A stretch of 32,646 nt of DNA from Ferrovaceae bacterium (lineage in GTDB: Bacteria; Pseudomonadota; Gammaproteobacteria; Burkholderiales; Ferrovaceae). Both the position numbers and the translations under genes were made by a program. Where the stretch lies: positions 1 to 32,646 of the forward strand of contig DAICZS010000019.1 of NCBI GenBank assembly GCA_027311025.1. Reading direction: 5' to 3'. Positions 10,798 through 32,552 of the stretch are shown here, in pieces. Every line of letters begins with the position of its first letter. Positions within the stretch are counted from its first letter, which is position 1. A model generated the notes under the pieces. The model saw only the letters and a list, made by a program, of their open reading frames with translations, ran no database searches and had not been told where the DNA came from.

Positions 10798-13700
10798 TTA
10801 CAACAGCGCGTCCGAATCGAAGTCGTCATGCGCATGCACCAGGCTGAACACCACGGGCACGAAAATCAAGGTGGCCACGGTGGCCAGTAACAATCCGCCA
10901 ATGACCGCGCGCCCCAGGGGAGCATTCTGTTCGCCCCCCTCCCCCAGCCCCAGCGCCATGGGCGCCATGCCAATGATCATGGCCAGCGCCGTCATCAATA
11001 CCGGGCGAAAGCGCGAAAACCCAGCCTCCACTGCGGCTTGCACGGCATTGCGTGTTTCCGCCAGGCGCTCGCGGGCAAAGCTCACCACCAGGATGCTGTT
11101 GGCAGTGGCCACCCCCATGCACATGATGGCCCCGGTCAACGCAGGCACCGAGAGCGTGGTATGGGTGGAGAACAGCATCCAGACGATCCCTGCCAGGGCT
11201 GCCGGCAGGGCCGTGATGATCACGAAGGGGTCCAGCCAGGACTGGAAATTCACCACGATCAGGAGGTAGATCAGGACCACGGCAGCCAGGAGGCCGAACA
11301 GCAGCCCCGAAAAGGCATTGTCCATGAGCGTGGCCTGCCCCTCCAGGGTCACTGTCGCGGTATCAGGCAGGTCCTTGCTGCTGTCATCAATCACATCCTG
11401 CACGCGCGTGGCCACCCGGCCCAGGTCGCTGTCCTGGATGGCCGCATAGATATCAAAGGCAGGTTCAATGGCATAGTGGCTGACCACCGCGTTCCCAACG
11501 TCGCGACTGATGGTGGCCAACCCCCCCAGCAGTTGCATCGGTTGATCCTGCCCCGTGGTCACCGGGATGTTCTCCAGGGCGGACAGGCTGTCGACCAGAT
11601 ATTGCGGCGTTTGCACCACGATGGGATAGGACACGCCATTGCGCGGGTTGAGCCAGAACGTGGGCGCCACCTGGCCACTCCCGGAAAGCGTGGTCACGAG
11701 GCTGTTGGTGACGTCCCGCTCCGTCAATCCCAAGGTCTGCGCCAAGGGGCGGTTCACGTTCACGTCAAATTGCGGATAGCTGTCCGATTGCTGGATGCGC
11801 GCGTCGGCAATCCCGTCCACATGTCGCACCTTGCGCAACAGGTTCTGGATATAAATCAGATTGGCCACGCGGTCTGGACCCCTGACCTGGATGTCGATCG
11901 GTGCCGGGGCACCGAAGTTGAGAATCTGGCTGACGATGTCCGCCGGCAGGAAGGCAAAGGACACGCCCGGAAATTTTTCCGGCAAAACCGTCCTCAAGGT
12001 CCGGACGAAATCGTCCGTGGAAGCATGTCCTTCGTTGAGCGACACCAGGATATCGCCATCCTGTGGACCGATGGTCCCCGTGTTGTTATAGGACTGATTG
12101 ATGCCACTGACAGGCAACCCCATGTTGTCCACGATGCTGGACACCTGCTCCCTGGGGATTTGCGCCCGTATCTCCTGTTCGACATCATCGAAGAGGTGAG
12201 CGGTTTCCTCCACTCGCGTTCCCACCTGGGCGCGCACATGGATTTTGATCTGCCCTCCGTCCACCGAAGGAAAGAAATTGCGCCCCAAAAACGGCACCAG
12301 CAGAAACGACAGCAATACCGCGGTCATGAAGCCGGCAATGAACCGCTTTTGATGGCGCATCGCAAGGCCCAACAGTTCGCGATATTGATCCCTGAGCGCC
12401 ATGAACCTGCGGTCGAACCCCTTCTGGAAGCGCAGCAGCGGATGGGTAGGCTCGACCGGATGCGCTTCATGGGGTTTCAACAGAAAGTGGGCCACGGTCG
12501 GAACAAATGTTCGGGACAGCAGGAAGGACGCCACCAAGGCAAACACCACGGCCTCAGCCATAGGCACAAACAGGTAACGCGGCACTCCCGTCAGGAAAAA
12601 CATCGGAATGAACACGATGCATACGCACAGCAGCGACACGAATGCCGGAATGACGATCTGCCGGGCGCCGTCCAGGATGGCCGTCCGGACGTCCTTTCCC
12701 TGCTCCAGATGCCAGTTGATGTTTTCAATGGTCACTGTGGCGTCGTCCACCAGAATCCCCACGGCCAGGGCCAGGCCACCCAGCGTCATGACGTTCAGCG
12801 TTTCCCCGATGGCCGACAGCGCCACGATGGACGACAGTATGGCCAATGGAATGGACGCCGAAATGATCACGGTCGAGCGCCAGCTTCCCAGAAAGAGCAG
12901 GATCATCAGGCTGGTTAACGCCGCAGCAATCACGCCTTCCCTGATCACACTGGATACCGCTGCATGCACGAACAGGGACTGGTCTCCGACGATTTCCATC
13001 CTGAGCGATCTGGGCATTCCGGTTTTAAGGCGCACCACCAGTTTCTTGATCCCCGAGATGATGTCCAGGGTTGAATTCGAACCGTTCTTGAGCACGGTCA
13101 TCAACACCGAACGGGTACCATCCACCCTGACGATGTTGATTTGAGGCGGAAACCCGTCACGCACATGCGCCACGTCACGCATGAAAATGGTCGCGCCCTT
13201 CACCTGCTTGATGGGCAGCTCATTGAGCTTCTGGTATTCGTTTGGACTGTCATTCAACTTGATGTTGTATTCAAACTTGCCGATTTTTTCGGTTCCGGCA
13301 GGGATGATGAGGTTTTGCAACGCCAGTGCATTGCTGATCTCGCCAGCAGATACGCCCTTGGATTGCATGGCCAGCGGGTCGAGGTCCACCTGGATCTGGC
13401 GCACCTTTCCTCCGTATGGCGAAGGCACGGCACTTCCGGGAACGGTGGACAATCGGGGGCGGATGAAATTCTGTCCCAGGTCAAACAGCTTTTCTTCTGG
13501 AATGTCCTTGCTGGACAACGCCAGCTGGAGGATGGGGACGGTTGCTGCGTTGTAGTTGAGGATGAGCGGGGGCGTGATTCCGGGAGGCAACTGCTTTAAT
13601 ACCGTCTGGGAAATGGAGGCCACCTGGGCGGTCGCCGTGCGGATGTCCACGCCAGGTTGAAAGAAGATTTTGACGATGCCGTACGCGGGCAGGGATTGTG

Positions 13701-13950
13701 ACTCGATGTGCTCGATGTCATTGACGGTGGAACTGAGGGTGCGTTCATAGATGTAGACCACACGACCGGCCATGTCATCCGGCTGCATGCCCGTATAGGT
13801 CCAGACGACGCTGATGACGGGAATGCGGATATCCGGAAAAATGTCTGTGGGCGTGCGCAGCGCGGCGAGTGATCCGAAAATGAGGATCAATATGGCCAGG
13901 ACGGTGAAGGTGTACGGGCGCCGCAGCGCCAGCTTGACGAGCTCGTACAT
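10798..13950 (-). CDS. RND efflux pump, inner-membrane permease (second pump, RND-B)
   Basis: AcrB-like resistance-nodulation-division permease that should form the inner-membrane pump of a tripartite exporter. ATG 13950 gives 1050 residues, with AAGGG upstream; the frame extends to 14001 but the added residues are not conserved in the paralogue. Visible features are the first helix after RRPYTF, two large periplasmic segments and the TM4 acidic pair D402-D403 (GILVDDATV). In the TM10 motif (GVATANSILVVSF), Ala950 stands where AcrB has Lys940. It is the last gene of the operon, 73 bases after the channel gene, and strongly similar to the first pump gene. Substrate is unknown. Confidence 0.93.
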   Translation of the reverse strand: MYELVKLALRRPYTFTVLAILILIFGSLAALRTPTDIFPDIRIPVISVVWTYTGMQPDDMAGRVVYIYERTLSSTVNDIEHIESQSLPAYGIVKIFFQPGVDIRTATAQVASISQTVLKQLPPGITPPLILNYNAATVPILQLALSSKDIPEEKLFDLGQNFIRPRLSTVPGSAVPSPYGGKVRQIQVDLDPLAMQSKGVSAGEISNALALQNLIIPAGTEKIGKFEYNIKLNDSPNEYQKLNELPIKQVKGATIFMRDVAHVRDGFPPQINIVRVDGTRSVLMTVLKNGSNSTLDIISGIKKLVVRLKTGMPRSLRMEIVGDQSLFVHAAVSSVIREGVIAAALTSLMILLFLGSWRSTVIISASIPLAILSSIVALSAIGETLNVMTLGGLALAVGILVDDATVTIENINWHLEQGKDVRTAILDGARQIVIPAFVSLLCVCIVFIPMFFLTGVPRYLFVPMAEAVVFALVASFLLSRTFVPTVAHFLLKPHEAHPVEPTHPLLRFQKGFDRRFMALRDQYRELLGLAMRHQKRFIAGFMTAVLLSFLLVPFLGRNFFPSVDGGQIKIHVRAQVGTRVEETAHLFDDVEQEIRAQIPREQVSSIVDNMGLPVSGINQSYNNTGTIGPQDGDILVSLNEGHASTDDFVRTLRTVLPEKFPGVSFAFLPADIVSQILNFGAPAPIDIQVRGPDRVANLIYIQNLLRKVRHVDGIADARIQQSDSYPQFDVNVNRPLAQTLGLTERDVTNSLVTTLSGSGQVAPTFWLNPRNGVSYPIVVQTPQYLVDSLSALENIPVTTGQDQPMQLLGGLATISRDVGNAVVSHYAIEPAFDIYAAIQDSDLGRVATRVQDVIDDSSKDLPDTATVTLEGQATLMDNAFSGLLFGLLAAVVLIYLLIVVNFQSWLDPFVIITALPAALAGIVWMLFSTHTTLSVPALTGAIMCMGVATANSILVVSFARERLAETRNAVQAAVEAGFSRFRPVLMTALAMIIGMAPMALGLGEGGEQNAPLGRAVIGGLLLATVATLIFVPVVFSLVHAHDDFDSDALL

Positions 13951-13971
13951 GCGATTTGACCCTTGAATGAG

Positions 13972-13992
13972 CACCCCCCCGGCAAGGGGGTG
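13972..13992 (-). other. Stem-loop between channel gene and second pump gene
   Basis: CACCCCC at 13972-13978 pairs with GGGGGTG at 13986-13992 around a 7-base loop, inside the 73-base gap before RND-B. No T run follows, so it is not a normal terminator. It might protect or separate segments of the operon mRNA, or be chance in a C-rich stretch. Confidence 0.35.
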
Positions 13993-14023
13993 TTGCATCA
14001 CTGCATTACATGATCAGAACAAG

Positions 14024-15427: not shown

Positions 15428-16650
15428 GGCTGCTTTCCGGCTTGCGCTGGGGGCGCTGCCGGCTTTTCGGCAGCGGCTTTTGGCGTACTGTTGCTGACCC
15501 TGACCAGGTCGCCATCTTCAAGCGAGTCCGGGGGGCTGTCCACAATGCGGTCATTGGGCTCGATCCCTGACAGAACCTCCACTTCCACGCCAAAATCCCG
15601 CCCCAATTCGACTTTCTTGAGCTTGACGTGATTATCGCTCTCCACGACGGCCAGTTGCACGCCAGCACTGCGCAGGATCAGCGCGCTTGCCGGTACGCGC
15701 TGGATTGACGTGTTTTCTGGCAGGTCAAACTTGACCTCAGCATAGCTTCCGGGGGTCAACAAACCGTCCTTGTTGTTGACCGACAACTCAACCAGCAGGG
15801 TACCCGAGCCGCTGCTGATTGAACCCGAGGTGCGCGTCAGCACCGCTGCAAACTGCCGGTCCGTGTATTCGGGCACCGTCAGCGTGGCCTTGACCCCCAC
15901 CTTGATCTGGTTGGAATAGCTTTGGGGAACGGGAACATACAGCCGCAGCGGATCGATGCTGGCCACGTTGAATAATTCGGTGCCTTTACCAGCGCTGATC
16001 AGGGCTCCGACGTCGGTCTTGCGGGCCGTGACGACGCCGTCAAAGGGCGCCACGACGCGCTTGAACTGTTCGAAAGCCTGAATGCGGCCCACGTTGGCCT
16101 TGGCGGCATCCACATCCGCCTTGCGTGCCTCGAGGTCTGCCGACTTCTCGTCCGAATCCTGTTGCGACACGGAATCCGTGGCCAGCAGGTTTTTCCAGCG
16201 TTTGGCCGTCACTTCGGCCAGGTTTTGCTTGGCCATGGCACTGACCAGGTCTGCCCGGGCCTGATCCAACTGGTGGTCCAGTTCAGGGGTATCGATGTCT
16301 GCCAGCAACTCGCCGGCTTTCACTTTCGCACCAATGTCGTGATACCAGCGCAGCAGGTAACCGTCCACCCGCGCAAGAATCGGCGCATCGATATAAGGCT
16401 GGAGATTTCCTGGCAATACCAGCGTGTGGGTGAGGCTACCCTGTTGGGAGGCAATGACCCTGACCACGGGAATGGCCTGCTCCTGTGTCCACTGGTTGAC
16501 CAGTTGAGATTGTCTGCTGCGCATGATCAATCCGGCAGCAACGACCAGTATCGCGACCACAAGCAAAATCAACCCCGCTCGTTTCAATCGGGACTGGGTC
16601 GCCTGATTCACTTCCAACAGCTTGTCGTCCTGATCCTGCTCATTCTGCAT
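15424..16650 (-). CDS. RND efflux periplasmic adaptor (membrane fusion protein)
   Basis: HlyD/AcrA-like periplasmic adaptor linking the pump to the outer-membrane channel. ATG 16650 gives 408 residues; AGGAG lies 6 bases upstream, so the longer frame to 16704 is not used. A cytoplasmic basic start is followed by one membrane helix at about residues 23-43 rather than a lipobox. Then come the lipoyl-like half motifs (ARVDGYLLRWYHDIGAKVKAG; VVAPFDGVVTARKTDVGAL), a helical hairpin of about 80 residues, and barrel domains. The Pro/Ala-rich tail is unordered. Its start overlaps the RND-A stop by 11 bases. Confidence 0.95.
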   Translation of the reverse strand: MQNEQDQDDKLLEVNQATQSRLKRAGLILLVVAILVVAAGLIMRSRQSQLVNQWTQEQAIPVVRVIASQQGSLTHTLVLPGNLQPYIDAPILARVDGYLLRWYHDIGAKVKAGELLADIDTPELDHQLDQARADLVSAMAKQNLAEVTAKRWKNLLATDSVSQQDSDEKSADLEARKADVDAAKANVGRIQAFEQFKRVVAPFDGVVTARKTDVGALISAGKGTELFNVASIDPLRLYVPVPQSYSNQIKVGVKATLTVPEYTDRQFAAVLTRTSGSISSGSGTLLVELSVNNKDGLLTPGSYAEVKFDLPENTSIQRVPASALILRSAGVQLAVVESDNHVKLKKVELGRDFGVEVEVLSGIEPNDRIVDSPPDSLEDGDLVRVSNSTPKAAAEKPAAPPAQAGKQP

Positions 16651-19600
16651 GTGAATCTCCTGACGCCTGTTCTGGGGCGTTTTCTTCGTTTTCAAACTTA
16701 TCACGAGCGTGCACCAAACTGAAAATCACCGGCACAAAGATCAACGTGGACAGGGTTGCCACCAGCAACCCGCCAATCACCGCCCGACCCAACGGCGCAT
16801 TTTGCTCGCCGCCCTCGCCCAGTCCCAGGGACATGGGCAACATGCCAATGATCATGGCCAGCGCCGTCATCAGCACCGGCCTGAATCGGGCAAAGCCCGC
16901 CTCAACCGCCGCCCGGGCCGCATCGCGGGTCTGCACCAGCCGTTCGCGGGCAAAACTGACCACCAGGATGCTGTTGGCCGTCCCCACGCCCATGCACATG
17001 ATGGCCCCTGTCAATGCCGGCACGGAAAGGGTGGTATGCGTGGCAAACAACATCCAGATGATCCCGGCCAGCGCTGAAGGCAAGGCCGTGATGATGACGA
17101 AGGGGTCCAGCCAGGACTGGAAATTCACCACGATCAGCAGGTAGATCAGCACGATGGAGCCGGCCAGACCAAACAGCAGCCCGGTAAAGGAGTTTTCCAT
17201 CAGGGGTACCTGACCCAGCACCTGCACCGTGGCTCCTTTCGGAATCTCCTTTTCCTGTCCCTTGATCAACGCGCGGACATCAGCGGCGACACTCCCCAGG
17301 TCCTTGTCCTGAATGGCGGCAAAAATGTCAAAGGCCGGCTGGATGGCGTAGTGGGTGACCACCGCATTGCCCTTGTCCCGACTGATGGTGGCCAGACCAC
17401 CCAGCACCTGCATCTGCTTGGCCGTCTCTGGCGTGATCGGCACGGAGGCCAACCCGCCATGAAGGGTTTGGGTTCTGGGATCATGGGCCGTGATGGGGAT
17501 GTTTTCCAGGTCGGACAGGGTGTAGGTACGGTATTGCGGCGTCTGCACCACGATGGGGTAGGACACGCCGTTGCGCGGATTGAGCCAGAACGTGGGCGCC
17601 ACCTGGCCGCTCCCTGAAAGGGTGGTCACGAGGCTGTTGGTGACGTCCCGCTCCGTCACACCCAGTGTCTGTGCCAGCGACCGGTCCACGTTCACATCAA
17701 ACTGCGGGTAGTTGGCCGATTGCTGGATGCGCGCATCGGCGATGCCGTCCACATGCTGCACCTTGCGCAGCAGATTCTGGACATATACCAAATTGGCATC
17801 CCGGTTGGGCCCCTTGATCTGGATGTCGATGGGTGCCGGCGAACCGAAGTTGAGGATCTGGCTCACAATGTCTGCCGGCAGGAAGGCAAAGGATACGCCG
17901 GGAAACTTTTCGGGCAGCTTCGTTCTGAAAACCCTGACGTAATCCTCAGTGGGGGAATGTTTTTCGTTCAGCGAAATCAGGATGTCGCCATCTTCCGGAC
18001 CCACCGTTCCGGTATTGCTATAGGCCGTGTTGATCCCGCTGACGGACAGGCCAATGTTGTCCATGATGGTTTCCATCTCTTCGGGCGGGATCTCCTTGCG
18101 AATTTCAGCCTCGATCCTGTCAAACAGGTTGGCCGTCTCTTCCACGCGCGTACCAACCTGGGCGCGCACGTGGATCTTGATCTGGCCACCATCCACGGAA
18201 GGGAAGAAGTTACGCCCCAAAAAAGGCAGCAGCAGGAAAGACAGCAACACCACGGTCATGTAACCCGGGATAAAGCGCTTGCGATTGTCCACCGCCATCT
18301 GCAACACGGAAACATATTGTTTGCGAAGCTTCGAGAATCGCTGCTCAAACCCGCGCTGAAACCGCATCAGGGCAAACTTGAGCTGATGGGGCAGTGCCCT
18401 GGCACGATGCGTGGGGTCCATCACCCACTGTTCGTGCAGGGAGGCATGTTCCATGTCCGCATGGGACTTGAGCAGGAAATTGGCAACGGTGGGGACGAAC
18501 GTCTGCGACAATACGAAAGAGGCGATCATGGCAAACACGACTGCTTCAGCCATGGGCACGAACAGGTAGCGTGGCACGCCCGTCAGGAAAAACATCGGGA
18601 TGAACACGATGCAGATGCTGAACGTGGACACAAAGGCCGGCTGCACGATCTGGCTTGCGCCATCGACGATGGCGCTGCGAACGTCCTTGCCCTCTTCCAG
18701 GTGATGGTTGATGTTTTCAATCATCACCGTGGCATCGTCCACCAGAATCCCCACCGCCAGGGCCAATCCCCCCAGGGTCATCACGTTCAGGGTTTCGCCC
18801 AGCGCGGAGAGGGTTGCAATGGAACAGAGAATAGCCAGGGGAATGGAGGCCGCGATGATCAGCGTGGAGCGCCAGCTTCCCAGAAACAGCAGAATCATCA
18901 GACTGGTGAGCGCGGCCGCAATCACCCCTTCCCTGATCACGCCATTGATGGAGGCCTTCACGAATATGGACTGGTCCGCCAGCGCCACCAGGTTCAAGCC
19001 GTCGGGAAGCGTTTCCTTGAGCTTGGGAATCATGTCGCGCACGCCCTGGATGATGTCCAGCGTGGAAGCCGCACCATTTTTGAGGATGGTCATCAGCACG
19101 GCCCGGCCCCCATCGACACGCACGATGTTGATCTGGGGGGGGTAGCCGTCGCGCACATGAGCCACGTCCCGCATGAAGATGGTCGTCCCGTTGGTCTGGG
19201 GAATCGGGGACTTGTCGTTGACCTGTTTGATGGGGATGTTGTTCAGAACATCAAACTCATCGGGACTGTCGTTGATTTTGATGTTGTACTCAAATAGGCC
19301 GATTTTCTGGGTGCCTGCAGGGATGATCTGATTCTGCGCAGCCAGGGCACGACTGACGTCATCGGGAGAAACGCCCTTGGACTGCATCGCCTTGGGATCA
19401 AGGTCGATCTGGATCTGCCGCACCTTGCCGCCATAGGGGGAAGGCAGCGCGCTTCCCGGAACCGTGGCCAATTGCGGGCGGATGAAGTTCTGCCCCAGAT
19501 CAAACAGGGTTTGTTCAGGAATTTTTCTGCTGGACAGGGCAAGCTGCAGGATCGGCACCGTTGCCGCGTTGTAATTCAGGATCAGGGGCGGCGTGATGCC

Positions 19601-19972
19601 AGGCGGCAGAAACTTCAACACCGTCTGGGAAATGGATGTGACCTGGGCCGTCGCCGTGCGGATGTCCACGGTGGGCTGAAAAAAGATCTTGACGATGCCG
19701 TAACCTGGCAACGATTGCGATTCAATGTGCTCGATGTCGTTGACCGTGGAGGTCAAGGCGCGTTCGTAGGCATAGACTACCCGACCCGACATGTCATCCG
19801 GCTGCATCCCGGTGTAGGTCCAGACGGCACTGATGACTGGAATGCGGATGTCCGGAAAAATGTCCGTGGGCGTGCGCAAAATGGCGAGCACGCCAAAAAT
19901 CAGGATCAGCAGTGCGAACACTATAAAGGTGTACGGTCGGCTCAAAGCCAGCCTGACGATCCCGGACATCAT
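16640..19972 (-). CDS. RND efflux pump, inner-membrane permease (first pump, RND-A)
   Basis: AcrB-like RND permease opening the four-gene efflux operon. The 1110-residue protein shares most of its sequence with RND-B but carries three extra stretches, near residues 252-261, 505-530 and 833-856. The TM4 acidic pair is D412-D413 (GILVDDATV). The TM10 motif reads GVGTANSILVVSF, with Ala999 where AcrB has the proton-relay Lys940. ATG 19972 follows AGGGG at 8 bases; a second ATG comes immediately after and could also serve. Upstream lies trpC on the same strand, 129 bases away, with TACAAT as a possible -10 box but no clear -35. No regulator gene is adjacent. Confidence 0.94.
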   Translation of the reverse strand: MMSGIVRLALSRPYTFIVFALLILIFGVLAILRTPTDIFPDIRIPVISAVWTYTGMQPDDMSGRVVYAYERALTSTVNDIEHIESQSLPGYGIVKIFFQPTVDIRTATAQVTSISQTVLKFLPPGITPPLILNYNAATVPILQLALSSRKIPEQTLFDLGQNFIRPQLATVPGSALPSPYGGKVRQIQIDLDPKAMQSKGVSPDDVSRALAAQNQIIPAGTQKIGLFEYNIKINDSPDEFDVLNNIPIKQVNDKSPIPQTNGTTIFMRDVAHVRDGYPPQINIVRVDGGRAVLMTILKNGAASTLDIIQGVRDMIPKLKETLPDGLNLVALADQSIFVKASINGVIREGVIAAALTSLMILLFLGSWRSTLIIAASIPLAILCSIATLSALGETLNVMTLGGLALAVGILVDDATVMIENINHHLEEGKDVRSAIVDGASQIVQPAFVSTFSICIVFIPMFFLTGVPRYLFVPMAEAVVFAMIASFVLSQTFVPTVANFLLKSHADMEHASLHEQWVMDPTHRARALPHQLKFALMRFQRGFEQRFSKLRKQYVSVLQMAVDNRKRFIPGYMTVVLLSFLLLPFLGRNFFPSVDGGQIKIHVRAQVGTRVEETANLFDRIEAEIRKEIPPEEMETIMDNIGLSVSGINTAYSNTGTVGPEDGDILISLNEKHSPTEDYVRVFRTKLPEKFPGVSFAFLPADIVSQILNFGSPAPIDIQIKGPNRDANLVYVQNLLRKVQHVDGIADARIQQSANYPQFDVNVDRSLAQTLGVTERDVTNSLVTTLSGSGQVAPTFWLNPRNGVSYPIVVQTPQYRTYTLSDLENIPITAHDPRTQTLHGGLASVPITPETAKQMQVLGGLATISRDKGNAVVTHYAIQPAFDIFAAIQDKDLGSVAADVRALIKGQEKEIPKGATVQVLGQVPLMENSFTGLLFGLAGSIVLIYLLIVVNFQSWLDPFVIITALPSALAGIIWMLFATHTTLSVPALTGAIMCMGVGTANSILVVSFARERLVQTRDAARAAVEAGFARFRPVLMTALAMIIGMLPMSLGLGEGGEQNAPLGRAVIGGLLVATLSTLIFVPVIFSLVHARDKFENEENAPEQASGDSHAE

Positions 19973-29077: not shown

Positions 29078-30841
29078 ATGCGCACTGAATACTGCGGCCT
29101 TGTAGATCGCCGCTATCTGGACCAAACCGTAACCCTGATGGGCTGGGCCCATCGTCGACGCGACCATGGCGGCGTCATTTTCATCGACCTGCGCGACCGC
29201 GAGGGTCTCGTCCAGGTGGTGTCCGACCCCGACAACCAGGACACCTTCCGGATTGCAGAAGGGGTGCGCAGCGAATTTGTCCTCAAGGTGACCGGGCGCG
29301 TGCGCCCCCGCCCCGAAGGGACGATCAACCCCAACCTGCGCAGCGGTGAAATCGAGGTGCTGGCCGGGTCCATCGAAATCCTCAACCCGTCGCTGCCCCC
29401 GCCCTTCCAGCTGGACGACGACAACCTTTCAGAGCAGGTGCGCCTGGAACACCGCTACCTGGACTTGCGCCGCCCGGCCATGCAGAAAAACTTCATGCTG
29501 CGCTATCGGGCCACCATGTCCGTGCGTCAGCATCTGGACGCGTTGGGTTTCATCGACATCGAAACACCCATGCTGACAAAATCCACGCCCGAAGGCGCAC
29601 GCGATTACCTGGTCCCCAGCCGGGTGCACCACGGACAGTTTTTTGCGCTGCCCCAATCGCCGCAACTGTTCAAGCAGCTGTTGATGGTGTCAGGCTTCGA
29701 TCGCTATTACCAGATCACCAAATGTTTCCGCGACGAAGACCTGCGCGCAGACCGCCAGCCTGAATTCACCCAGATCGATATCGAAACCTCCTTCCTCACC
29801 GAACATGAAATCATGGACATGATGGAAGGCCTGGTCCGCGACCTGTTCAAGAAAACCATCGATGCAGATCTTGGCGCCGCCTTCCCACGCATGAGCTGGA
29901 CCGAGGCCATGATGCGTTATGGTTCGGACAAGCCGGACCTGCGCATTCCACTGGAATTCACCGAACTGACCGACCTCATGAAAACCGTGGACTTCAAGGT
30001 GTTCCGCGGTGCCGCCGACCTGGCGGACGGACGGGTGGCCGCGTTGCGCATTCCCGGAGGCGGATCGCTGTCACGCAAGGAAATCGACGACTACACCACC
30101 TTCGTGGCCATTTACGGTGCCCGCGGCCTGGCTTACATCAAGGTCAACGACAAGGCGCAGGCCAACGACCAGGGACTGCAGTCCCCCATCGTGAAGTTTC
30201 TGGGCGAGCCGGTACTGCGCGAAATCCTGGAGCGCACCGGCGCCGAAAACGGTGACCTCATTTTCTTCGGCGCCGATCGCGCCAAGGTGGTCAATGATGC
30301 CCTGGGAGCGTTGCGCGTCAAGCTGGGGCACGAGCGCGGGTTTTCCACCGGAGGCTGGAAGCCGCTGTGGGTGGTGGACTTTCCCATGTTTGAATACGAC
30401 GATGAAGACAAGCGCTGGGTGGCCCTGCACCACCCGTTCACTGCGCCCAAGGACGGCCATGAAGCCTTCCTCGAATCCGATCCCGCCAAGGCCTTTGCCA
30501 AGGCTTACGACGTGGTGTTGAACGGCTGGGAAATTGGCGGCGGTTCGGTGCGTATCCATCGAGAGGACGTGCAATCCAAAGTGTTTCGCGCCCTCAACAT
30601 CGGGCCCGATGAGGCCCGCGCCAAGTTTGGCTTCCTGCTCGACGCCCTGCAGTACGGCGCACCACCCCATGGCGGCATCGCCTTTGGCCTGGACCGCCTC
30701 ACCGCCATGATGACCGGGGCAGAACATATTCGCGACGTCATTGCCTTCCCCAAGACCCAGCGCGCCCAATGCCTGCTCACCCAGGCACCCAGCCCGGTGG
30801 ACGAGAAGCAGTTGCGGGAATTGCACATCAAGCTGCGCTGA
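29078..30841 (+). CDS. aspS: Aspartyl-tRNA synthetase, probably non-discriminating (AspRS)
   Basis: Class II synthetase charging tRNA-Asp. The 587-residue protein has the N-terminal OB-fold anticodon domain and class II motifs (motif 2 [20 protein letters not shown]; motif 3 GIAFGLDRL). The bacterial GAD insertion sits at about residues 280-420. In the anticodon domain, His30 and Gly81 stand at the positions where Pseudomonas-type non-discriminating enzymes have His and Gly and E. coli has Leu and Lys. That suggests the enzyme also charges tRNA-Asn, for later amidation by GatCAB. The upstream ribosome-binding site is weak. Confidence 0.96.
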
Positions 30842-30845
30842 TCCA

Positions 30846-32552
30846 TTGGACGCCACGCTGCTCAATCTTGCCGGGATTCGTGCGGCAGAACAGGGACAGA
30901 CGGCCGAGGCAGAACAGCTGTGGCGCCAGGCCATCGCCCTGGGGCCGCCCAACGCGTCCATCCATTTCAATCTGGGCGTCACCCTGGCAGCCTCGGGACG
31001 CACCCTCGAGGCGCTGGAACAGTACCAGCACGCTGCACGGCTGGATCCGGACAATGCGGCGGCCTTTGCCAATCTGGCCCTGCTGCAGGAAAAACTGGGT
31101 GACCCCGAGGCCGCTGGGCGCCACCACCGCAGGGCCGCGGCACTGGCTCCCGACAATGCCACGATTCGCTTCAACCTCGCCAACTGGCTTTACGCTTCTG
31201 GCCCACCCGAAGCACTGCAGGAAGCACAAGCCACCTACCTCGACCTGCTCAAGGCCGACCCCCGGCATCTGGGGGCCTGGAACAACCTGGGCACCCTGCT
31301 GTTCGAAACGGGGTATGTTTCGGCAGCCGAAACGGCTTTTACTGCCGCCACCACGTATCACCCCGACGACCTGGCCGCGCGCATCAATCTGGGTCAGGTC
31401 CTGCTCCACAAGAATGCCCTCGAGGCTGCCCGCCAGCAGTTCACGGAGGCCTTGCGCCTCCGGGCGGATCAGGCGGAAGCCCATCAGGGGCTGGCCTCCT
31501 GTTTCAGCCGCGAGGGCAACGAGATCAGCGCAGCCTGGCACCGCTCGCAGGGGTTTGGGCGACAGCCCGTCTCCATCCTGCCTTATCGGGGTCGGGGGCA
31601 ACCCACCCCCTTGCTGATCCTGGCTACGGCCCAGGAGGGCAACATTCCCTGGCGCTTTCTGGTGGATCGCAGCCGCTTTCACAGCACCATTCTGGCCATG
31701 GAATACGTGGACCCCGGGCTGCCACTGCCCCCCCATGCGCTGATTTTCAATGCCATCGGCGATGCGGACCGGTGCGCAGAAGGCTTGCGTCGCGCGCAAC
31801 AATTCATCGCGCGCAGCCACGCCCCGCTCATCAATCCACCGCAGCGCGTCTTGCACACCAGGCGCGAGGATCACGCCCGGTACCTGGCCCACATCCCGGG
31901 TCTTGTCATCCCGCGCATCATGAAGCTTGCTTCATCAGGGGCGACTGGGGTGGCCCATGAACTGCAACGTTCCGGCTTTCGTTTTCCCCTGCTGCTGAGG
32001 GCGTCAGGGTTTCATGGCGGGCATTTCTTCGTGCGCGTCGAGGCAGCAGCGTCACTGCAACAGGCCCTGGATGAATTGCCCGGCACCGCGGTGCTGGCCA
32101 TCGAATGGCTCGATGCCCGCGGACCGGACGGGTTGTATCGCAAGTTCCGCATGATGTGCATCGGCGGAGAGCTGTATCCCATCCATCTCGCGCTCTCTTC
32201 CCAGTGGAAGGTGCACTATTTCAGCTCGGACATGGCCGGGAATGCGGCCTATCGCGCAGAAGAAGCGGCCTTTCTCGATGACCCCGCCGGTTTTCTGGGA
32301 GCCGCCGCCATGGCCACCCTCACTGCCGTTGGGGAGACCATCGACCTGGATTATTTCGGCATGGACTGCTGCCTCACCGCAGACGGCAACATCCTGCTGT
32401 TTGAAGCCAATGCCACCATGGTGCTGCAGCCGCCCGCCAACGACGCGCTGTGGGACTACCGGCGCGCTGCGACGGAACGGGCCCTGCAGGCCATCCGGCG
32501 CCTGTTCATCGAGCGCTCTGGCTGCGGACGCGCCGCTTCAGAAATGGTTTGA
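30846..32552 (+). CDS. TPR-repeat protein with ATP-grasp-like C-terminal domain
   Basis: Not recognised as a named protein. From the TTG at 30846 it has 568 residues. Residues 3-238 form six to seven tetratricopeptide repeats (for example [22 protein letters not shown]), a protein-binding superhelix. Residues about 245-540 resemble an ATP-grasp fold: [11 protein letters not shown] (382-392) could be the glycine-rich loop, and DYFGMDCCL (502-510) plus FEANATM (519-525) look like the metal-binding end of RimK- or D-Ala-ligase-type enzymes. No signal peptide is seen. The start lies 4 bases after aspS; upstream in-frame ATG 30741 would lie within aspS. The 3' end overlaps uvrA by 47 bases. Confidence 0.75.

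Follow-up and report, generated by a model that had tools for sequence, protein, structure and literature searches.

Downstream of aspS, a Ferrovaceae genome (2.2 Mb, 99.3% complete) carries an open reading frame (ORF) whose product joins TPR repeats to a predicted ligase domain, which raises the question of what such a protein would modify. The window, i.e., the whole stretch of DNA analysed, is one entire contig of 32,646 bp that ends 94 bp past the 3' end of this ORF, its last gene, so the absence of an adjacent substrate gene noted originally can apply to the upstream side only; in one sister genome (locus L059), the next gene is a convergent uvrA. As originally predicted, the ORF lies after aspS at 30846-32552 on the plus strand and encodes 568 amino acids; 4 bases separate its putative TTG start from the aspS stop. 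We refer to this gene and its closest relatives as type A. The features of the locus are the following:

29078..30841, plus strand: aspS, the upstream neighbour, outside the proposed function (aspartate--tRNA ligase, TIGR00459 5.5e-243)
30846..32552, plus strand: type A gene, seven TPR pairs and a predicted ATP-grasp domain (ORF; full-length AlphaFold2 model, pLDDT 94.3, pTM 0.89)
30852..31553, plus strand: TPR solenoid, residues 3-236, 14 helices (7 pairs), proposed target-binding module (Pfam TPRs, DSSP of the model)
31563..32519, plus strand: predicted ATP-grasp domain with its N-terminal (pre-ATP-grasp) lobe, residues 240-558 (AlphaFold2, Foldseek and VIA-align: RimK, LysX/ArgX, Ddl)
31998..32030, plus strand: R385 to F395 of the glycine-rich loop, [14 protein letters not shown] (conservation)
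32139..32150, plus strand: R432-K433-x-R435 motif (conservation, 75 sequences)
32205..32222, plus strand: W454-K455-V456-H457-Y458-F459, type A signature (conservation, 75 sequences)
32364..32411, plus strand: D507 and E520-x-N522, predicted Mg-binding residues (conservation, 75 sequences; role by analogy)

The N-terminal half matched Pfam TPR_11 (7.8e-23) and many further TPR models, and the full-length AlphaFold2 model contained 14 helices in residues 3-236, i.e., seven helix pairs, with the ligase domain directly after. The TPR solenoid of the original prediction is thus confirmed. For the C-terminal half, no Pfam family was above cut-off: the sub-threshold matches were R2K_3 (E 0.011; 16.4 bits, cut-off 26.3) and ATPgrasp_ST (E 0.03; 14 bits vs cut-off 31.4), both of them ATP-grasp models. 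NCBIfam returned no family for this half among the best 25 of the 31 matches listed, and the profile of 75 C-terminal sequences had no convincing match among PDB sequences (one match, E 0.79). Of the two checks proposed for the fold, the profile search therefore gave sub-threshold ATP-grasp matches only, and it was the structure comparison with RimK and D-Ala-D-Ala ligase that supported it. Indeed, the AlphaFold2 model of residues 240-568, built on the 75-sequence alignment, had a pLDDT of 94.1 and a pTM of 0.91. The first rows of a Foldseek search of this model against the PDB were D-Ala-D-Ala ligases and RimK (E 3e-12 to 1.5e-11), and the first row of VIA-align was RimK (5zct, Z 20.2, rmsd 3.9, 264 residues), followed by Z in the order ArgX, LysX, and glutathione synthetase. 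The ATP-grasp fold, which had been assigned by eye, is strongly supported by these results.

The active-site residues agree with this assignment. The glycine-rich loop spans residues 382-392 ([11 protein letters not shown]) and a second conserved stretch residues 432-447 ([16 protein letters not shown]). R385, G388, and G392 were invariant in 60 full-length sequences, R385 and G392 also in the 75 C-terminal ones. In these 75 sequences, K433, R435, and all six residues of WKVHYF 454-459 were invariant, and R432 was present in at least 90%. Where an ATP-binding lysine is expected, the glycine loop holds the invariant R385, and the candidates are the invariant K433 and K455. The expected metal site, D ... 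E-x-N, corresponds to D507, E520, and N522, all invariant in the 75 sequences; these we take to bind Mg by analogy with ATP-grasp enzymes. The residue numbers first given for the loop and for the metal site (502-525, which contains D507 and E520-x-N522) were correct, and both the ATP-grasp core and the Mg-binding residues, whose absence would have spoken against the prediction, were found. By its predicted fold and these residues, type A is an ATP-grasp protein, and a putative ATP-dependent carboxylate-amine ligase. The weak R2K_3 match recalls the R2K clade of ATP-grasp proteins, proposed to be protein-modifying ligases in the accessible part of PMC4431377; R2K.3 is marked there by ExGD, and type A has instead the invariant E520-x-N522, so that, judged by this motif, type A is not R2K.3.

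We then investigated how the gene is distributed. In a sample of 100 genomes of the order, 36 matched and three (G067, G070, and G095) were dropped, leaving 33 carriers. The methionine-synthase-like matches (residues 90-162) were taken as chance and left out of the counts; the chance matches of the three dropped genomes were long frames with E 3.8e-4 to 9.1e-4. Type A was found in 23 of the 33 carriers at E <1e-75, and each of the 23 had at least one further family match. Members of the second type, type B, are 26-36% identical to type A in the C-terminal domain, are mostly about 380-430 amino acids long, and have a short TPR-like start. Nine genomes of the order had type B only, and G027 had a divergent member of 611 amino acids. 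The window's genome carries one type A and one type B gene (34% identity), its third match being a methionine-synthase-like chance one.

Scanning genome contigs with type A gave 99 relatives, 80 of which were kept (L059-L138). According to the record titles, many of them of metagenome bins, these belong to Ferrovum and relatives, Sulfuriferula, Acidiphilium, Acetobacteraceae, Xanthobacteraceae, Bradyrhizobium, Eremiobacterota, Acidobacteria, and Sulfobacillus. The rule that type A always occurs with another family member, true for 23/23 genomes in the order, failed in this wider set: a second member was absent in 18 of 48 type A genomes, all outside the window's family. Dependence on the type B operon (see below) is therefore not general. 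Two genomes titled Eremiobacterota, G517 and G506 (those of L115 and L101), had ten and nine family matches, some of which may be fragments.

The closest solved folds (RimK, ArgX, and LysX, Z 19-20) point to one candidate function, that of a RimK-type glutamyl ligase tagging a ribosomal or translation protein. RimK and LysX/ArgX join amino acids to proteins, RimK on S6 and LysX/ArgX on LysW, and the RimK metal site has the same D...E-x-N pattern as type A. RimK is also the best fold match, the gene follows aspS in the window's family, and type B matches rimK_fam weakly, one Paraburkholderia type B record being named accordingly. Yet the type A sequence is only 10-15% identical to RimK and LysX/ArgX despite the Z of 19-20, and we know of no TPR in these enzymes. 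The RimK family (TIGR00768) was absent for type A from the best 25 of the 31 NCBIfam matches listed (last E 0.022), and on the type B paralogue rimK_fam scored 22.6 bits (E 5.7e-5) against a cut-off of 143.4. By the curated model, then, type A is not RimK. The linkage to aspS was found in 15 of 65 loci, with all 15 contigs from Ferrovaceae; the neighbour table covers 65 of the 80 type A loci, the gene caller having read the wrong strand over the target in the other 15. Being confined to the window's own family, this linkage was rejected as a functional clue. Furthermore, translation is universal, yet the gene is missing where flagella are missing, as described below. A role in tagging the translation machinery is thus very improbable. 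Since type A trails aspS in the window, no flagellar co-regulation is evident either.

The association with flagella emerged from marker genes. We searched for FlhA (TIGR01398) first, and then for rod genes (PF00460) in the FlhA-negative carriers. FlhA was present in 72 of the 100 genomes of the order: 31/33 carriers vs 41/67 others (Fisher p=3e-4). In the window's family, it was found in 19/21 carriers vs 4/11 others (p=0.0026), and among 398 genomes of the phylum in 31/32 carriers vs 290/366 others (p=0.007); these Fisher tests disregard relatedness, and the order, family, phylum, and type A sets overlap. The type A set, in which 42/48 genomes had FlhA, stands for 48 of the 80 loci; of the remaining 32, 18 are from the window's family, and three of the other 14 lie in genomes already covered by the order set. 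Among the FlhA-negative carriers, rod genes were found in G013, in G292, and in five of the six of the type A set, and not in G027 or G486. With rod genes counted, flagellar genes were present in 32/33 (order), 32/32 (phylum), and 47/48 (type A) carriers. Only the FlhA figures compare like with like, because rod genes were sought mainly in carriers; the non-carriers checked were G003, G007, G008, G014, G019, and G023 (none) and G010 (found). At the threshold used, E 1e-60, homologues from type III secretion systems can be picked up as FlhA as well; 302 of the 321 phylum matches were over the curated cut-off. In the genomes sampled, the family is thus almost confined to carriers of flagellar genes and probably acts on flagellar proteins.

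The Ferrovaceae offer a closer view of this association. In the accessible part of PMC4886054, the group 2 Ferrovum strains are described as non-motile and as lacking the flagellar cluster present in F. myxofaciens. Neither FlhA nor rod genes were found in seven Ferrovaceae genomes. In six (G003, G007, G008, G014, G019, and G023), there was no family match either, and tblastn revealed no trace of type A at aspS, a place taken in the genus-4 genomes by several kb of other DNA. In G003, which belongs to the window's genus and is 88% complete, the 3' ends of aspS and uvrA overlap, both genes are 92% identical to a relative's, and no 14-base word is shared with type A. The seventh genome, G027, without flagellar markers, keeps the divergent TPR-ATP-grasp member, which adjoins a SerC-like gene. 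Conversely, FlhA is present and the family absent in the genus-7 genomes G010, G015, G020, and G024, and the flagellated G010, G015, and G020 likewise had no type A at aspS. In Ferrovaceae, type A lies outside the flagellar cluster, so its joint absence with distant flagellar genes is informative, although this may reflect either loss or original absence.

Does the gene also lie close to flagellar genes? The survey of neighbours suggested in the original prediction revealed no generally conserved type A neighbour beyond Ferrovaceae. Since the gene caller was wrong-stranded at 15/80 type A loci, flagellar genes were mapped by tblastn with a limited query set, mostly from the window's genome and its order, so the map can miss distant flagellar genes. 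A flagellar gene was found within 10 kb in 7 of the 80 type A loci, whose flanks are often short, and in 15 of 41 other chosen fetched loci (8/15 in Ferrovaceae), both as raw counts. Type A stands by flhB-flhA-motAB in L066, L067, and L071, by flgB-E in L092, and 5-6 kb from flgD in L135 and L136. In the seventh locus, L115, an Eremiobacterota flagellar cluster, it lies between flgD-flgE and motA-motB-fliM, adjoined by a TPR-sulfotransferase (PF13469, 2.6e-42). Outside Ferrovaceae, the type B operon adjoins fliD-fliS in L176 (FliS over cut-off; FliD 2.6e-39, below cut-offs) and lies between flagellin-flbT and flgL-/flgK-like genes in L180 (flagellin just under cut-off, flbT over it); L182 has the same arrangement by tblastn. 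In L175, flgK/flgL/flbT are nearby, and in L196, L197, and L191 the operon is separated by 4-6 kb from fliR, fliS, or fliD.

These counts bear on the view that the family's product is a small molecule, or that its targets are other polymers or proteins of the cell surface, the flagellar link being indirect, through lifestyle or genome size. No flagellar gene was detected nearby in 73/80 type A loci and 26/41 of the other set, the neighbours include metal-efflux RND genes, which recur at several type A loci, or sugar-nucleotide genes, and the spread across phyla is patchy, with up to 10 matches per genome. However, operons placed in che/flg, fliD-fliS, and flagellin-flbT clusters of several lineages are hard to explain from lifestyle alone, as is the absence of type A at aspS in six flagella-less relatives. 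An indirect link seems unlikely to us.

The type B operon suggests where the attached group might come from. In the window's genome, the gene order is cheB-like, PLP decarboxylase (PF00282, 4.1e-68), type B, and a gene named c68, followed by flgA on the opposite strand and then flgB onward. The cheB-like match is just below cut-off and covers the methylesterase part; flgB was checked, and flagellar names beyond the checked ones were assigned by eye, on the basis of gene order and sequence. The c68 protein had no Pfam, NCBIfam, or credible PDB match. In an alignment of 22 sequences, T243-G-S-K246-F, D219, and Q222 were invariant, and c68 looks like a PLP aminotransferase fold, with the candidate PLP lysine in TGSKF read by eye. 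Among the gene-called mapped loci, c68 occurs in 23 and the decarboxylase in 27, and a SerC-like class V aminotransferase was found in nine mapped loci. Fusions repeat these associations: decarboxylase and type B in L051; decarboxylase, TPR, and type A in L098 (1034 amino acids); TPR, type A, and class V aminotransferase in L111 (886 amino acids).

Taken with the computed two-domain fold, the conserved active-site residues, and the flagellar co-occurrence, these operon and fusion links suggest that type A probably adds to flagellar proteins a small group that contains an amine. We propose that it works in the cytoplasm as a carboxylate-amine ligase of the ATP-grasp kind and that its substrates are flagellar proteins awaiting export, with flagellin or some other protein of the filament or axis as the likeliest; the chances of this reading we judge to be about even. 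The TPR solenoid would dock the flagellar client, for which FlmG (see below) is the precedent, and the ATP-grasp site would activate a carboxylate as acyl phosphate, to be joined to an amine or amino acid as an amide; the acceptor could be the polypeptide or its glycan. The type B operon, with its PLP decarboxylase, second ATP-grasp enzyme, and PLP-like c68, could be the source of this amine or amino acid, both in the window's genome and in the remaining type A genomes of the order sample. Less likely than this is the full picture, an undescribed and patchily distributed amide counterpart of FlmG glycosylation in which a TPR-guided ATP-grasp enzyme would link a flagellar protein, through an amide, to a decarboxylated amino acid made by the two-PLP-enzyme operon. 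The activity first suggested, that of a ligase for peptides or proteins with the TPRs as its target-binding part, gains support from the closest folds and from the flagellar association; the ligase role itself we infer.

The known flagellin modifications are mostly O-glycans and lysine methylation, and two systems are comparable to type A, in both cases by description only. According to the accessible part of PMC7591256, FlmG of Caulobacter is close to type A in length (596 amino acids) and has, like it, an N-terminal TPR region and a C-terminal catalytic domain. It modifies flagellins in the cytoplasm, whereas modification of flagellar proteins is only proposed for type A, and its catalytic domain is a GT-B glycosyltransferase and not an ATP-grasp (PMC7591256). 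Two-hybrid assays showed interaction of three flagellins with the TPR region and none with the catalytic part on its own (PMC7591256). In Shewanella, SfmE (SO_3265) shares the ATP-grasp assignment with type A and is needed for full flagellin mass (PMC3765264); it is our precedent for the involvement of an ATP-grasp protein in modifying flagellin. In the available part of that paper, an ATP-grasp_4 domain is assigned and TPR goes unmentioned, and the SfmE partners are NeuB-, TPP-, and methyltransferase-like, whereas type A and type B are linked with PLP enzymes. A C. difficile ATP-grasp gene beside flagellin glycosyltransferase genes is a suggested participant as well, as far as the accessible part of PMC5207246 goes. 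In the open-access literature searched, we found no description of a TPR-ATP-grasp flagellar family.

The Shewanella system also bears on the main rival to the protein-directed reading, namely that the ligase acts on a sugar, loading a nonulosonic or uronic acid with an amino acid or amine before its transfer to flagellin by glycosyltransferases, with the TPRs docking a partner glycosyltransferase. In Shewanella, flagellin is modified with a nonulosonic acid that carries a substituent of 236 Da, and loss of SfmE shifts the flagellin mass slightly less than loss of other sfm genes; from these mass-shift data, SfmE may act in this way (PMC3765264, accessible part). Some neighbourhoods point in the same direction. 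Two genes for nonulosonic acid, NeuC (over its cut-off) and NeuB/PseI-like (below its cut-offs), occur at L048:8881-11044, about 5 kb away from type A, on the contig that also holds L083; L065 has genes from both of these clusters directly beside type A. In L138, TPR-GT41 proteins flank type A, one on each side, and upstream of it is a TPR protein that matches GT9 below threshold (0.0019); L131 has type A fused to a TPR protein whose GT9 match is likewise sub-threshold (3.7e-4). With L115, these contexts indicate that, in some genomes, type A accompanies other "TPR plus transferase" proteins. The weak Pfam match to ATPgrasp_ST, a sugar-transfer ATP-grasp, fits as well, but is far below its cut-off. 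Moreover, in the neighbour table of type A loci, no sugar gene is conserved beside the family across lineages, and the closest folds, RimK and LysX/ArgX, act on proteins. We therefore consider a sugar substrate rather unlikely.

If modification of the flagellar protein by type A is the true function, a TPR-guided, amide-forming system would add a chemistry to flagellar modification in at least Pseudomonadota, Eremiobacterota, Acidobacteria, and one Sulfobacillus (by record titles). It would also account for genes annotated in the records only as "TPR protein," "hypothetical," or "RimK family," and an orphan gene thereby becomes open to a direct test, on flagellin mass.

Some further observations concern single loci. 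In the window, two RND efflux permeases are encoded on the minus strand (10798-13998 and 16640-19972), with NCBIfam matches that are strong and below cut-offs. A Ser/Gly-rich family of 211-238 amino acids, c75, occurs 3' of flgL in the window's genome (L034:16675-17391; no Pfam match for this member) and just before type A in L067 (8468-9103), and is a candidate client protein. The type B gene of a Rhizobium tumorigenes plasmid (L056:11908-13620) has an extra C-terminal domain, unnamed by Pfam at E 0.1, that by eye resembles a C39/papain-type cysteine peptidase; between it and the PLP decarboxylase lies h514 (504-514 amino acids, without Pfam match), also found in L185. Finally, a plasmid of Cupriavidus sp. 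EM10 (L055, L057) carries two type B-like genes about 21 kb apart, one of them annotated as two ORFs, which flank a nickel/cobalt/cadmium resistance region.
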